A stretch of DNA of 48,203 bases from positions 1 to 48,203 of the forward strand of contig JAOOBR010000009.1 in the NCBI GenBank assembly GCA_028404565.1, in the 5' to 3' direction. Source of the stretch: Pseudomonadota bacterium. Lineage in GTDB: Bacteria > Pseudomonadota > Gammaproteobacteria > Magnimaribacterales > D2472. This document shows positions 29,426-35,486 of this stretch, piece after piece. The stretch's first letter is position 1; the number at the start of each line of letters is the position of its first letter. The translations under genes were made by a program, and so were the position numbers. Under the pieces are notes generated by a model. It saw only the letters and a list, made by a program, of their open reading frames with translations, had not been told where the DNA came from and made no database searches.

Positions 29426-29434
29426 TTTTTGGAT

Positions 29435-30433
29435 ATGTTTGTTCGGCTGGCTAAGGTAAAAGATTGCCAAGATATATATGATTTGATTAAAGATGGTGAT
29501 TCGGGTATGACAACTCTGCCCAAATCAAAAGATGAAGTCCTAGAGAGAATTAGCTGGTCTAAAAAATCTTTAAACAAGAAAGCAAAAAGACCTGACAAAG
29601 ATTCATATCTTTTTGTGCTTAAAGAAAATAACAGAATAGTTGGTATTTCTGCAATCTACACCTCTGTTTCAAAAAATGGAACTTCAGTTTTTTTTAAACA
29701 AAAAAAGAAGAATATTTCCTCAAAAGTTTTTAAATTTAAGAAAAGTTTAGACGTCATTCAGTTACACACAGTTAAAAATCCATATACTGAATTAGGTACT
29801 CTTTATTTACATCCTGATTTTAGAGGAAAGGGAAGAGGATCTTTGTTGTCATTGGCGCGCTTTAAGTTTATGGCTCTCTGGCCAGAGAGATTTGATCAGA
29901 AAGTTGTTGCTGAAATAAGAGGTAAAGTAGATAAAGATGAAACTTCAATTTTCTGGAAACATTTTAGTAAGTACTTTTTTGATGAAGAAATGTTCAACAA
30001 CAATGAAATAAGTTATATAAATAATTCTTTTATTGCTGAGTCTATACCTAAACACCCATTCCTTGTAAGTCCATTAAATAGATCAGCTCAAAGGATAATT
30101 GGAATTCCAAATGATAATGCAGTACCTGCTTTTAAGATGATGGAATCTCAGAACTTTAAACCTAATGGCTTGGTGGATATTATTGATGCTGGGCCTTGTC
30201 TTGACTGTAAGTTAAATGAAATTAAAACAATTAAAAATAATCAGTCTGTAAAAATAAAATCATTTGGTCTTCCAGAAAAGCAATTCAGCGGCCTTATTTC
30301 AAATACAGATCTAAAAGGGTTTAGAGTTGTCAGATCAGATTTTTCTTTTGATGGTGAAAAAGTTTCAATTCATAGAAACCTTATAGAGACTCTTAAATTA
30401 GGAACTAATAGTAAGGTTGCAATTAATGTCTGA
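29435..30433 (+). CDS. astA: Arginine N-succinyltransferase AstA
   Basis: AstA starts the arginine succinyltransferase catabolic pathway, making N2-succinylarginine from arginine and succinyl-CoA. The 332-residue protein matches the family along its length: TELGTLYLHPDFRGKGRGSL, ARFKFMALWPERF, KVVAEIRGKVD, FIAESIPKHP and IDIIDAGPCLDC. I chose the ATG at 29435; a TTG at 29429 would add two residues. The stop overlaps the astB start by 8 bases. The partners astC, astD and astE are not in the window. Confidence 0.95.
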   Translation: MFVRLAKVKDCQDIYDLIKDGDSGMTTLPKSKDEVLERISWSKKSLNKKAKRPDKDSYLFVLKENNRIVGISAIYTSVSKNGTSVFFKQKKKNISSKVFKFKKSLDVIQLHTVKNPYTELGTLYLHPDFRGKGRGSLLSLARFKFMALWPERFDQKVVAEIRGKVDKDETSIFWKHFSKYFFDEEMFNNNEISYINNSFIAESIPKHPFLVSPLNRSAQRIIGIPNDNAVPAFKMMESQNFKPNGLVDIIDAGPCLDCKLNEIKTIKNNQSVKIKSFGLPEKQFSGLISNTDLKGFRVVRSDFSFDGEKVSIHRNLIETLKLGTNSKVAINV

Positions 30434-31745
30434 AATAAACTTTGATGGTTTGATTGGTCCCACACATAACTATTCAGGATTATCTGAAGGCAACAATGCA
30501 TCAAAAAAAAACTATTCTTCACCCTCTAATCCCAAGAATGCAGCGCTACAAGGAATTAAAAAAGCAGAAACTTTAATTGCATGTGGATTGAAACAGGGAT
30601 TTTTCCTTCCCCATGAAAGGCCTTTTATACCAGGACTAAAAAAGCTTGGCTTTAAAGGAACTGATGAAGATATACTTTCATCAGCATTCAATCATTCGCA
30701 GGTTTTATTGAGTAATTTTTCATCTGCCTCATCAATGTGGGCAGCTAATGCAGCAACTATATCTCCTAGCCCAGACACTCAAGATGGTAAGGTTCACTTA
30801 ACGCCAGCAAATCTAAATACTATGTTTCATAGAAGTATTGAAACAGAATTTACATATCAGCAATGCAAAATAATTTTTCCAAAAAAATATTTTGAAATAC
30901 ATAAACCAGCCCTCACTATTTCAGGTTACGGCGATGAGGGAGCAGCAAATCATTTAAGAATAAGTAAATCTCACAATGAGAAAGGCTTTGAAATATTTGT
31001 ATATGGTGATAGTGGTTTTAAAAATGATAAGACGTCAGTTAAGAGACAAGCACTTGAAGTTTCTAGATCAATTGCCTTTAATCACAAGCTAGATATGGAA
31101 AACACTTTTTTTCTTCAGCAGAATCATCAAGCTATTGAGGAAGGAAGCTTCCATAATGATATTGTTAGCCTCTCAAATGAGAATGTCTTAATTGCGCATG
31201 AAAAGGCTTTCCAAAATAAAGATGATTTAAATAAAATGCTAAATATACTTGAATCGAAAATTGATAATTTCCAATATATTGAGATTTCTAATTCTGAAAT
31301 TCCCTTAAAGGATATTATTAGCTCATATCTTCTTAACTCTCAACTCATTTCGAACAGCGATAACGAGATGCAATTAATTCTTCCTGAAGAGGTAAAACAA
31401 TATGAAAATTGTATGTCTTGGCTAGATAAACTAAAACAAATCTCAGATGTAAAGCTTTTTAATTTTGTTGATATTAGGCAAAGTATGATGAATGGAGGAG
31501 GGCCTGCATGTCTAAGGTTAAAAGTGATTTTAAATGATGAAGAACTTGAAAGCCTTAACCAAAATTTCCTAATGAATAGTGAGAGACTAGAATCTATTAA
31601 ATTATTAATTGAAAGAGAGTATAGAGATGTGCTTTATCCTGATGATCTTAAGGATCCAAATCTACTTGATGAGAGCAGAAGAGTCCTAGATGAGCTTACT
31701 CAAATCTTTAGTACTGGCTCAATATATGAATTTCAAAAACTCTAA
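30426..31745 (+). CDS. astB: N-succinylarginine dihydrolase AstB
   Basis: AstB converts N2-succinylarginine to N2-succinylornithine, ammonia and CO2. I chose the ATG at 30426 (439 residues; E. coli 447), giving MSEINFDGLIGPTHNYSGLS, the family N-terminus. The catalytic Cys362 is in GGGPACLRL. The C-terminus (VLDELTQIFSTGSIYEFQ) aligns with the E. coli end, so the gene is complete. It overlaps astA by 8 bases and ends 3 bases from the end of the convergent valS. Confidence 0.96.
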   Translation: MSEINFDGLIGPTHNYSGLSEGNNASKKNYSSPSNPKNAALQGIKKAETLIACGLKQGFFLPHERPFIPGLKKLGFKGTDEDILSSAFNHSQVLLSNFSSASSMWAANAATISPSPDTQDGKVHLTPANLNTMFHRSIETEFTYQQCKIIFPKKYFEIHKPALTISGYGDEGAANHLRISKSHNEKGFEIFVYGDSGFKNDKTSVKRQALEVSRSIAFNHKLDMENTFFLQQNHQAIEEGSFHNDIVSLSNENVLIAHEKAFQNKDDLNKMLNILESKIDNFQYIEISNSEIPLKDIISSYLLNSQLISNSDNEMQLILPEEVKQYENCMSWLDKLKQISDVKLFNFVDIRQSMMNGGGPACLRLKVILNDEELESLNQNFLMNSERLESIKLLIEREYRDVLYPDDLKDPNLLDESRRVLDELTQIFSTGSIYEFQKL

Positions 31746-31748
31746 TTC

Positions 31749-33971
31749 CTACCTATCAATTAATGGCGCTTTAAAAATAATTGAATGAATTTCTTCAGTT
31801 ATAAACGGAGCAAAAGGATGAATAAAAATAAGTATTTCCTTAAGAAGGGGATGCAGATTATCAGTTTTTTTAGTTTTTTTGCATTCTTCAATGTAAACAT
31901 CACAAAACTTATTCCAGAAGAACTCATATACATGATTAATAGCTAAATCTAACCTGTAATGATTTACATTATCCTCGACATCGGCTTTTAGCTGTTCAAA
32001 TTCTTTTAATATCCATTTATCAGATTCAGATTCAGCTTCAAAATTATTCCCTTTGTTTTCATAACCATTAATAAATCTTGCAGCATTCCACATTTTGGTA
32101 CAAAAATTTCTAAACCCTTTTAATCTCCCAATTTCAAAACTTATATCCTTAGCATTAGTTGCAATAGAATAAAATGTCATACGTAAAGCATCTGTTCCAT
32201 GAGACTCAATACCATTTGGGAATTGTTTTTTGGTTTTTCTAGCAATCTTTTCTGCTAAACCTTCTTGCATAAGATTTGATGTTCTTTTTTCAAGAAGATC
32301 TTCTAAAGATATACCATATATTAAATCGATAGGATCAATAATATTGCCTTTAGACTTTGACATTTTCTGTCCATTTTCATCTCTTATGAGGCCAGTAACA
32401 TAAACATCTTTAAAAGGAATTTTTCCAGTAAATTCGATACTCATCATGATCATTCTTGCAACCCAGAAGAAAATAATGTCAAAACCAGTAACTAATAGAT
32501 CTGTTGGGAAAAAAGTTTTTAGATTTTTTGATTCATTTGGCCATCCCATTGATGCAAAAGGCCAAAGGCTAGAGGAAAACCACGTATCTAAAACATCATC
32601 ATCTTGCCTTAGCGATCTATTATCAAGTGAATAATGAGTTCGCACTTCATCTTCAGAATACCCCACATAAACATTTCCATGATCGTCATACCATGCAGGA
32701 ATTCTATGACCCCACCAGATTTGTCTGCTAATACACCAATCTTCAATATTATTCATCCAGTTAAAATAAGTTTTAATCCAGTTTTCAGGATGAAATTTAA
32801 TTTCTCCATTTTCTACAGCTTTATTTGCCTTATTAGCCATGTCCTTTGTTTTTACATACCACTGATAACTCAGTTTAGGCTCTATAACTATATTTGAACG
32901 CTCTCCTCGGGGAACACTGATTTCATGTGGTTCCTCTTTTACAAATAAATCTAGTTTTTTAATTTCTTCAAGAACAAGCTTTCTTACTTTGAATCTGTCT
33001 AAATTTTTGAAGGGAGAAGGGACATTATCATTACTATGCGCCTCATCAGTAAAAATATTAAGTGGTTCAAAATCTTCAATATCATCAGATATATGAACTT
33101 CATTGTCTACACAATGAAGGCAGTATTTTTTACCTATTTCATAGTCATTAAAGTCATGCCCAGGAGTGATCTTAAGGCAACCCGTTCCGAACTCTTTATC
33201 CACATAGGTATCACCAATTATTGGGATTTTTCTCTTTACAAATGGGAGCTCAACTTTTTTTCCAATGATATCTTTGTATCTTTCATCTTTAGGATTAACT
33301 GCAATTGCCATATCTCCAAACATAGTTTCTGGACGTGTTGTTGCAACTGTTACAAAATCATCTGAACCTATAATTGGATACTTTATATACCAAATAAGAC
33401 CTTTTTTTTCTTGTCTTACAACCTCCAGATCTGAAACCGCAGTTTTTAAAGATGGATCCCAGTTTACTAACCTGTAACCACGATAGATTTTCTCTTTCCT
33501 ATAAAGCTCAACAAAAGCTTTAAGAACAGCTTCATTAAAACCTTCATCCAAAGTAAATCTGTAATTACTCCAATCAACTGAGTTACCTAACCTTTTAATT
33601 TGCCCAGTAATTTTATTTTCTGAAAATTCTTTCCACTCCCAAACTTTTTTAACAAAATTTTCTCTACCCAAATCATTTTTATCAATATTTTCTCTGGATA
33701 GGTTATTTTCAACGACCATTTGCGTTGCAATTCCTGCATGATCGGTACCCATCTGCCAATGAGTATCTACATCATTTAAGTGATTGTATCTGGCATAGAA
33801 ATCCATTATCGAATATTGGAAGCTATGCCCCATATGAAGAGTTCCAGTTACATTTGGAGGTGGAATAACCTGCGAAAAAGTTTGTGAGGAGTTGTTTTTA
33901 CCTAAATTATTTTTTGCCCAAAGCTCTGACCACTTTTCTTCAATAATAAGTGGCTCATATCTTTTATCCAT
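31749..33971 (-). CDS. valS: Valine--tRNA ligase, C-terminally truncated
   Basis: ValRS charges tRNA-Val. The catalytic core is complete: HMGH at 46-49 (HIGH motif), the CP1 editing domain with TTRPETMFGD and GCLKITPGHDFND, CISRQIWWGHRIP, and KMSKS at 536-540. The protein is only 740 residues against 951 in E. coli. Alignment by eye holds up to HPFAPFITEEIH (ending about 729), then stops at IDR740; the end of the anticodon-binding helical domain and the C-terminal coiled-coil arm (about 160 residues) are missing. The stop is 3 bases from the end of complete astB, so there is no room for the rest. It is either a real short form or a broken assembly. pepA lies 15 bases upstream, without holC between. 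Confidence 0.93.
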   Translation of the reverse strand: MDKRYEPLIIEEKWSELWAKNNLGKNNSSQTFSQVIPPPNVTGTLHMGHSFQYSIMDFYARYNHLNDVDTHWQMGTDHAGIATQMVVENNLSRENIDKNDLGRENFVKKVWEWKEFSENKITGQIKRLGNSVDWSNYRFTLDEGFNEAVLKAFVELYRKEKIYRGYRLVNWDPSLKTAVSDLEVVRQEKKGLIWYIKYPIIGSDDFVTVATTRPETMFGDMAIAVNPKDERYKDIIGKKVELPFVKRKIPIIGDTYVDKEFGTGCLKITPGHDFNDYEIGKKYCLHCVDNEVHISDDIEDFEPLNIFTDEAHSNDNVPSPFKNLDRFKVRKLVLEEIKKLDLFVKEEPHEISVPRGERSNIVIEPKLSYQWYVKTKDMANKANKAVENGEIKFHPENWIKTYFNWMNNIEDWCISRQIWWGHRIPAWYDDHGNVYVGYSEDEVRTHYSLDNRSLRQDDDVLDTWFSSSLWPFASMGWPNESKNLKTFFPTDLLVTGFDIIFFWVARMIMMSIEFTGKIPFKDVYVTGLIRDENGQKMSKSKGNIIDPIDLIYGISLEDLLEKRTSNLMQEGLAEKIARKTKKQFPNGIESHGTDALRMTFYSIATNAKDISFEIGRLKGFRNFCTKMWNAARFINGYENKGNNFEAESESDKWILKEFEQLKADVEDNVNHYRLDLAINHVYEFFWNKFCDVYIEECKKTKKTDNLHPLLKEILIFIHPFAPFITEEIHSIIFKAPLIDR

Positions 33972-33986
33972 TTAGGTAAAAGTTCT

Positions 33987-35486
33987 TTAGCTTAGAATCA
34001 AATCACAAAGAAGAGGAACTGGCCTTCCTGTTCCACCTTTTTCATTGCCTTTAACCCATGCAGTTCCGGCAATATCTAAATGAGCCCAGCTATAGTCTTC
34101 TGTAAACTTTGATAAAAAGCATGCTGCTGTAACAGTGCCAGCACCAGCACCACCTATATTTGCTAAATCAGCAAAATTTGTTTTGGTGCAAGATTTATAT
34201 TCATCCCAGAGTGGTAATTGCCATGCTCTATCGCCAGAATTTTCTCCAGCTTGCAAGATCTTATCAGCAAGTTTTTGATCATTTGCCATTAAGCCAGATG
34301 CATAGTTTCCAAGAGCAACTACACATGCTCCAGTTAGTGTGGCTATATCGATTACATGAGCAGGCTTATACTTCTTAACATATGTAAGAGCATCGCAAAG
34401 TACTAATCTTCCTTCTGCATCAGTATTAAGGATTTCAATAGTTTGTCCTGACATTGATGTTACAACATCTCCAGGTTTAGTTGCATGAGCAGAGGGCATA
34501 TTCTCAGCACATGCAAGAAGACCCACAACATTAACTTTTGCGTTGAGTCTCGCTAGAGCAATCATTACGCCAAATACCGAGGCTGCTCCGCACATATCCC
34601 ATTTCATTTCATCCATTGCAGGGGATGGCTTTAACGATATACCGCCAGTATCAAAGGTTATTCCTTTTCCTACCAGGACAATTGGTTTTTCACCAGCTTT
34701 TCCACCTTTATGCTCAATTGTCATCATTCTTGAAGGCTCATCACTTCCTCTTCCAACACTTAAGAAAGAACCCATTTTAAGTTTAGCCAAGTCTTTTTCA
34801 TTAAAAGTTGAAATCTTTAATTTTGGAAATGGTTTTTTTAAGGCTTTAACTTTTCTTTCAATTATTCTTGGAGTGCATAAGTTTGCAGGCATATCGCCTA
34901 AATGCTTGGCTGCATTCATAGCTTCGCCGACTGCAAAGCCAACCTTAGCCGAGGTTTTAAGCTTTTTCAAAGCTGAGGGTGTTACAGAACTCGCTATGAT
35001 AGAAGCCTTTTTTAAACTAGGTTTTACAACTGTTTTATTTTTAGAGCTACCAAAAATATATGCAGATGCTTCTATTTGTCTGCAACAAACTTCAGTTAAC
35101 CAACTTTCATCTTTCCCATCGGGACATTTGCATGCAAACATAACAGAAATGTCCTGTTTTCCAAGAGAATTGGCTGTTTTTGAGATAGATTTAAATAGAT
35201 CTAACCATAGGTAGGTATTAGATTTATCAGGAGTCTTCATAAGCAGAACTTCTTTTGATAAAACACCTTCAGGACTTTGAAGATTAAGAGACTTAGCTTT
35301 TGACTTCATAAAGGAATTTATAGATTTAAATAAACTACCCTTTGTTACTTTATCCATATGAATTAGCAATTTATTCTTTTTAGCAGACTTATCAACAAGG
35401 ACTACCAAAAGAGAGGATTTATCTTTTACAAACTCTTTGCCGCTTAGATTTTTAACTGAAATGCTATTTAATACTCTGTAACTCAT
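33987..35486 (-). CDS. pepA: Leucyl aminopeptidase PepA (M17)
   Basis: PepA is a di-metal M17 aminopeptidase; in E. coli it also binds DNA in Xer recombination and carAB control. Its 499 residues match the family (503). The C-terminal catalytic domain has VGKGITFDTGGISLKP (metal and substrate residues), MKWDMCGAASV and the signature NTDAEGRLVL. AGGAG precedes the ATG on the minus strand. It is divergent from lptF (62-base gap) and probably co-transcribed with valS. Confidence 0.97.
   Translation of the reverse strand: MSYRVLNSISVKNLSGKEFVKDKSSLLVVLVDKSAKKNKLLIHMDKVTKGSLFKSINSFMKSKAKSLNLQSPEGVLSKEVLLMKTPDKSNTYLWLDLFKSISKTANSLGKQDISVMFACKCPDGKDESWLTEVCCRQIEASAYIFGSSKNKTVVKPSLKKASIIASSVTPSALKKLKTSAKVGFAVGEAMNAAKHLGDMPANLCTPRIIERKVKALKKPFPKLKISTFNEKDLAKLKMGSFLSVGRGSDEPSRMMTIEHKGGKAGEKPIVLVGKGITFDTGGISLKPSPAMDEMKWDMCGAASVFGVMIALARLNAKVNVVGLLACAENMPSAHATKPGDVVTSMSGQTIEILNTDAEGRLVLCDALTYVKKYKPAHVIDIATLTGACVVALGNYASGLMANDQKLADKILQAGENSGDRAWQLPLWDEYKSCTKTNFADLANIGGAGAGTVTAACFLSKFTEDYSWAHLDIAGTAWVKGNEKGGTGRPVPLLCDLILS

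Follow-up and report, generated by a model that had tools for sequence, protein, structure and literature searches.

A short valyl-tRNA synthetase without the C-terminal arm is conserved in part of SAR86

The valS gene of a 48,203-nucleotide stretch of SAR86 DNA (the whole stretch analysed, here termed the window) encodes a short valyl-tRNA synthetase (ValRS) of 740 amino acids that is without the C-terminal arm (31749..33971, minus strand; open reading frame, profile and structure matches). ValRS loads valine onto its tRNA and is an essential enzyme. Comparisons of sequence indicate that no other copy exists and that the short form very likely works. The explanation considered very probable is that of a sole, functional minimal ValRS, which arose once in SAR86 and spread by replacement; core changes, and probably a change in the tRNA, would compensate for the loss of the tRNA clamp. 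A first-pass annotation of this DNA had listed a minimal ValRS among several options, and this is the option that has gained support: the gene is single, tail-less and conserved, is under strong purifying selection, and retains the core and the helix bundle.

HMGH, KMSKS and TTRPET are all found in the translation; the first two are class I synthetase signature motifs. The protein scores 901.5 bits with the NCBIfam profile TIGR00422 (curated cut-off 612.1), and the match spans profile positions 1-701 of 863. An editing (CP1) domain is present at residues ∼191-348 (32928..33401, minus strand; match to the ValRS fragments 1wka/1wk9), and an anticodon-binding bundle with five predicted helices comprises residues 613-740 (31752..32135, minus strand; Pfam, fold model). 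The match to the Pfam model Anticodon_1 (E 1.7e-23) covers model positions 1-92 of 148 only, and Val_tRNA-synt_C (PF10458) was not found in the protein by a Pfam search. In the one full-length SAR86 ValRS checked, Anticodon_1 is covered from 3 to 145 of 148 and PF10458 is present. From the translation and comparison with full-length relatives, the early end consists of the final 13 codons and the stop (31749..31790, minus strand). The C-terminus reads ...HPFAPFITEEIH-SIIFKAPLIDR-stop, i.e. 11 residues after HPFAPFITEEIH. Relative to the Thermus thermophilus ValRS (1gax, 862 residues, chain covered 3-703), ∼160 residues are missing, and full-length SAR86 ValRS continue for ∼180-190 residues beyond this end point. 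The early end close to the convergent astB, as initially annotated, therefore stands, with the two stops 3 bp apart.

An AlphaFold2 model of the short ValRS, built from 18 aligned sequences, has a pLDDT of 80.6. Weak stretches lie in the core (39-47, 527-542 and 591-617), and parts of the modelled catalytic core, including the KMSKS loop, have a pLDDT <50; from residue 621 onward the mean pLDDT is 77-96 in every block of ten. The predicted bundle helices are at 618-635, 649-670, 674-700, 706-717 and 722-733. The best structural match is T. thermophilus ValRS 1gax (Z 30.6, rmsd 5.0, 642 residues), with model residues 1-740 aligned onto chain residues 3-703 of 862. A model of a full-length SAR86 ValRS is weak (pLDDT 63.5) and was used solely for the order of the C-terminal elements. 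It displays five helices in the same order (621-751), a sixth helix (772-794), an alpha/beta piece (803-858) and then long helices at 865-891 and 901-928, which form the coiled coil. As modelled, the short ValRS retains the catalytic core, the editing domain and the five bundle helices, and is predicted to be without a counterpart of helix 772-794, the alpha/beta piece and the coiled coil. The missing part was originally described as the end of the anticodon-binding domain together with the coiled-coil arm, which holds for the domain as Pfam defines it; the five bundle helices are still present.

A set of 233 columns is conserved in ≥95% of 54 full-length ValRS, and 210 of these are also kept in ≥90% of 19 short sequences, with 34/36 in the editing domain and 21/25 in the bundle. 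One of the columns lost, at window residue 692, holds a tryptophan in all 54 full-length ValRS. It is the anticodon bundle that reads A35-C36, the main valine identity bases.

The short form was followed in 61 SAR86 genomes, the window's own and 60 relatives. Families are labelled f1-f4, f1 being the window's family, and genera g1-g10. With the TIGR00422 profile, ValRS is short in 36 of the 61 genomes and full-length in 25. In the full-length group the match reaches profile position ∼860, and short frames stop near 700-713. Among the 36, the G026 gene runs off its contig and was assigned by sequence, and those of G019 and G039 are split over contigs. PF10458 is above the cut-off in exactly the 25 full-length genomes and in none of the 36 short ones. 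The window's family, with 107 genomes, yields 60 short frames (739-748 aa) and 24 full frames (894-941 aa); in the other 23 the gene is cut, broken or without a match at the set threshold. A class-wide survey of 369 genomes has, among the matches listed, a ValRS frame <900 aa only in two SAR86 f1 genomes. The dN/dS ratio of the window valS with eight g1 relatives (8 pairs) is 0.05-0.10, and that of the bundle 0.03-0.11; such low values point to strong purifying selection on the short valS. A pseudogene reading was rejected. As a separate observation, a SAR86-type short valS (73% identity) is found in L123 (CAJVZM010000096.1), binned as an uncultured Flavobacteriaceae MAG, which is most likely a binning error.

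The coiled-coil arm of other ValRS holds the tRNA elbow, and as the lost arm would touch this elbow, tRNA-Val was compared. Passages of one source describe an arm residue of human ValRS that binds the D-loop backbone, on a model derived from 1gax (PMC5686820). The tRNA-Val(UAC) of short genomes has a 9-base D-loop and is 77 nt long, and that of full-length genomes has an 8-base D-loop and is 76 nt long. Where the tRNA was found whole, the 77-nt form is present in 58/58 short genomes and 0/29 full-length ones. In f1 genomes with both states known, the length is 77 nt in 52/52 short and 76 nt in 17/17 full; it is 77 nt in 6/6 read from f4 (short), and 76 nt in 12/12 found in f2/f3 (full). Judged by eye, f1 carries the extra base at position 17a and f4 at 20a. 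Within the family, tRNA length was taken as the genomic span of the match, and sequences were read for 30 family genomes (loci) and G017. There is no tRNA-Val(UAC) match in 18/107 family genomes, another tRNA only in G031, and a piece only in G018 and G457. The tRNA is absent or partial in 11 short and 7 full family genomes, and also in G048 and G051 (f4); seventeen family genomes with a whole tRNA match and no usable ValRS end were left uncounted. In f2, the tRNA pattern search found no tRNA-Val(UAC) in G052, and G046, G049 and G055 lay outside this search.

For Val(GAC), the second isoacceptor, D-loop length is 9-11 bases whether the enzyme is short or full-length. Of 11 tRNA kinds compared in the family, Val(UAC) alone separates short from full genomes; the controls, Val(GAC), Ile, Asp and seven other kinds, do not, several of them resting on two or three full-length genomes. 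The D-loop value of 7 for tRNA-Lys in this comparison is one too short, as TTT occurs twice. In genome G015, a g7 member with the short ValRS, tRNA-Val(UAC) is identical to that of the window genome over 77 bases. The flanks of this tRNA locus are g7-like (75% over 2.4 kb with G029), and the full-length g7 sisters have the 76-nt form. Passages of another source describe G20 as a valine identity base of minor weight in E. coli (PMC9976931). Full-length f1 genomes carry G20, but U20 is found both in the short genomes and in the full-length f2/f3 ones; a general rule that loss of G20 accompanies loss of the arm was therefore dropped. Of separate interest is the tRNA-Asp of the g2, g3, g4, g5 and g8 genomes read (e.g. 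L212, L216, L226, L233), whose D-arm is unusual (GTTA.AACGGTTA.TAAT or a close variant) and unlike that of g1, g7, g9 and g10.

The short ValRS may function with no adaptation of the tRNA at all, the D-loop difference in tRNA-Val(UAC) being a coincidence of ancestry, and we give this an even chance. The tRNA was examined only after the enzyme state was known and the link was noticed after the fact; just three independent contrasts are available, and although all 3/3 agree, the sign test gives p 0.25. Variation in the D-loop across these genera is seen in tRNA-Asp, Thr and Met too, and Val(GAC) shows no correspondence with the enzyme. Less easily reconciled with coincidence are the agreement in 87/87 genomes with both states known, a count per genome and not of independent events, the D-loop that follows the enzyme inside g7 (G015 short with 77 nt, its full-length sisters with 76 nt) and the fact that only one of the 11 tRNA kinds separates the groups. 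Co-adaptation of the tRNA-Val(UAC) D-loop and the short ValRS is a good hypothesis and not a result, the sequences being suggestive of it. In its fuller form, the arm-less ValRS and a tRNA-Val(UAC) with remodelled D-loop would be a co-adapted pair, whereby loss of the clamp required or allowed the change at the elbow, f4 gained its insertion independently, and G015 acquired both partners because one works poorly without the other. The G015 valS (∼245 kb) and tRNA body (∼826 kb), unlinked on one chromosome, would both have come from other SAR86. This joint reading is tentative and rather doubtful as a whole.

The history of the gene was traced by trees. In a tree of 59 ValRS sequences, made on shared columns and with the split genes of G019 and G039 left out, the 34 short ValRS form a single clade (SH-aLRT 100). 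When rooted with 38 other Gammaproteobacteria, the SAR86 ValRS stay together (node support 93) and fall into three lineages: f1-full, f2+f3-full and short. The stem of the short clade measures 1.0 changes per column, compared with 0.37 and 0.14 for the other two. The tree of isoleucyl-tRNA synthetase (IleRS), which covers 40 of the 61 genomes, requires three changes of the short/full label, and a single clade of short hosts is rejected on IleRS (AU p 1e-5). Short and full-length SAR86 ValRS are 50-55% identical in the shared part. Between short and f1-full genomes the identity is 52-55% for ValRS and 58-66% for IleRS, and between f1-full and f2/f3 it is 56-57% and 49-53%, respectively. Among g7, g9 and g10, the full-length ValRS are 64-69% identical and IleRS 63-64%. 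Between f4 and f1-short, ValRS is 70-76% identical and IleRS 48-52%; the high ValRS value could partly reflect strong constraint and not transfer. The G015 valS is 70% identical to that of g1 and 52% to that of a g7 sister. Its pepA is nearest to g7 (67% vs 57-61%), and its astB is undecided (51-53% to those compared). Since the clade of short genes conflicts with the IleRS tree across families and within a genus, we infer transfer and replacement inside SAR86: the full-length valS would be the native f1 gene, and the short form would have passed from one SAR86 lineage to another, taking the place of the full-length gene at its locus.

Vertical descent is an unlikely alternative history, whereby the short form was present in the ancestor of f1 and f4 and full-length valS was regained later in g7, g9 and g10. 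It draws on the IleRS tree, where f1 and f4 are sister families, and on passages of a study that gives a common origin to the Suzuki (D2472) and CHAB-I-7 (TMED112) families (PMC11582366). Family f4 is the CHAB-I-7 (TMED112) family of that study, and f1 is inferred to be the Suzuki/D2472 family; the valS locus of the TMED112 record NHFN02000001.1 is letter for letter that of G048 (f4). However, the f1-full ValRS diverges in step with IleRS, as does a native gene, and the short form does not, which favors transfer of the short form over its vertical descent. A further observation concerns g5 and g2 (L045, L056, L057, L059), where the short ValRS are 79% identical and IleRS 87%, the reverse of other short-short comparisons. 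This suggests that alleles may have been exchanged among short valS forms as well.

The earlier suggestion that a second piece of ValRS is encoded elsewhere found no support. A tail profile of 175 aa, built from ten full-length SAR86 ValRS, recovered the tail in 3/3 full-length control genomes at 1e-50 to 1e-64 and in 0/36 short genomes, where the best match has E 0.002 over 62 positions. The window's own genome has no second valS above the TIGR00422 cut-off. This genome is 79% complete and a tail could escape there; in G010, G015, G042 and G045, each a single contig, it would be harder to miss. No tail remnant was detected in the 900 bp downstream of 33 short valS stops: the best value is 0.025, on the reverse strand of G060, and the next 1.3, with a best of 3.1 in shuffled DNA. 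In 32 of these 33 genes, an ATG open reading frame of ≥80 aa follows the stop at a distance of no more than 104 bp; in G032 the distance is 524 bp. TIGR00422 matches that run past the stops (G057, G035, G013 and others) were dismissed as chance extensions, no tail remnant following the short-gene stops. Split class I synthetases exist, the alpha/beta LeuRS of Aquifex being an example that counts in favor of a split gene, and weak coiled-coil matches below the cut-off do occur. Nevertheless, the sole PF10458 match of the window genome (4e-4) sits in a 730-aa open reading frame, and similar matches come from 729-733-aa frames in full-length genomes. A missing tail or second full ValRS that acts in trans is thus very improbable.

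The adjoining astB encodes a succinylarginine dihydrolase of 442 aa (30417..31745, plus strand; open reading frame, Pfam) and is complete, as first annotated, with the Pfam model matched at 3-443 of 443. Three bases, 31746-31748, separate its stop codon from that of valS. Directly before astB, an open reading frame at 29429-30433 (plus strand) resembles astA (arginine succinyltransferase) by eye and so would be part of an ast cluster. On the other side, pepA, encoding a peptidase M17 (33987..35486, minus strand; Pfam, neighborhood comparison), is the upstream neighbor of short and full-length valS alike. It is directly upstream in f1, whether valS is short or full, wherever the contig shows it, and ∼330-440 bp further upstream in f2, f3 and f4. 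The pepA-valS gap is thus nearly nil in f1 (15 bp in the window, 33972-33986), and the ∼330-440 bp gap of f2, f3 and f4 presumably holds holC.

In g1, g8 and G015, 2-8 bp separate the short valS stop from a convergent astB. The stop of full-length valS overlaps the convergent astB stop by 4 bases in g7 (3/3) and is 1-2 bp from astB in g10 (2/2). Other open reading frames follow the short valS in g2-g6 and f4 and the full-length valS in g9, f2 and f3. As full-length valS also adjoins astB in sister genomes, astB is a bystander to the shortening. That an old deletion fused the end of valS to astB, as the first-pass annotation had proposed and as the 3 bp between the stops might suggest, is contradicted by the full-length genes abutting astB in g7 and g10 and by the short genes adjoining other frames, and it retains hardly any probability.

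A scan of genome_contigs yielded 362 loci, from which the 80 best were retained; it bears on the gene ends themselves. Of these 80, 61 are 70-99% identical to the window ValRS, three of them cut by contig ends, and the remaining 19 have at most 54% identity and are 924-1040 aa long. All 58/58 loci with both gene ends, among the best 80 of 362, are 739-754 aa from stop to stop. The same early end in close relatives, whose valS length had been proposed as a check, is far beyond chance. The short valS is a real, conserved and inherited version of the gene, not a sequencing error. An assembly chimera or frameshift in the window contig, conceivable in a fragmented draft of 31 contigs, is effectively excluded by the 58/58 loci, which include the complete chromosome CP097973.1 (L148) with the G015 valS locus letter for letter.

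As with other bacterial ValRS (TIGR00422; 1gax), the short enzyme passes the profile cut-off and its catalytic, editing and bundle parts align. It differs from T. thermophilus ValRS in that residues 704-862, including the PF10458 arm, have no counterpart. Full-length SAR86 ValRS (g7, g9, g10; f2, f3) share the pepA-valS locus and, in g7 and g10, the astB neighbor, but have PF10458 and a partner tRNA-Val(UAC) of 76 nt where found. The short form is similar to MetRS-type class Ia synthetases in the layout of core and bundle and in ending at the helix bundle. MetRS chains align to the end of the short-ValRS model near their own ends, e.g. 5k0s at 3-485 of 496. MetRS has no large editing domain and serves a different amino acid, and the likeness is one of layout, not membership. 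Deletion of the coiled coil of T. thermophilus ValRS, in the 2003 work of Fukai et al., reportedly raised KM ∼28-fold and lowered kcat ∼19-fold. In the laboratory ValRS, the arm is reportedly worth several hundred-fold in charging efficiency. Both that deletion enzyme and the SAR86 enzyme are without the arm, but the SAR86 enzyme is even shorter and the only copy found. No description of a short ValRS in SAR86 was recognized among the open-licence papers listed; passages of one paper concern an unrelated insertion in cyanobacterial ValRS (PMC4893482).

By sequence and predicted fold, the minimal ValRS retains catalytic core, editing domain and five helices of the bundle; the helix that comes next, the alpha/beta piece and the coiled-coil arm have been dispensed with. 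From the trees, it probably had a single origin within SAR86, along a branch where many substitutions accumulated in what was left of the core, and would have spread by in-place replacement of full-length valS at the pepA-valS locus. The enzyme may bind tRNA-Val via the acceptor end and anticodon only, as do MetRS-type synthetases. Core changes would compensate for the loss of the arm, as would, probably, a tRNA-Val(UAC) with a D-loop longer by one base.

According to the abstract of PMC11582366, few bacterial groups in the surface ocean are as abundant as SAR86. An abundant surface-ocean group is largely without the ValRS arm, despite the weight of this arm in the laboratory enzyme. The short form represents a natural small ValRS, and a core translation gene that appears able to move between SAR86 families. 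Genus g7 offers matched full-length and short pairs within one genus, and with these a clean test of what changes are needed after loss of the elbow clamp.
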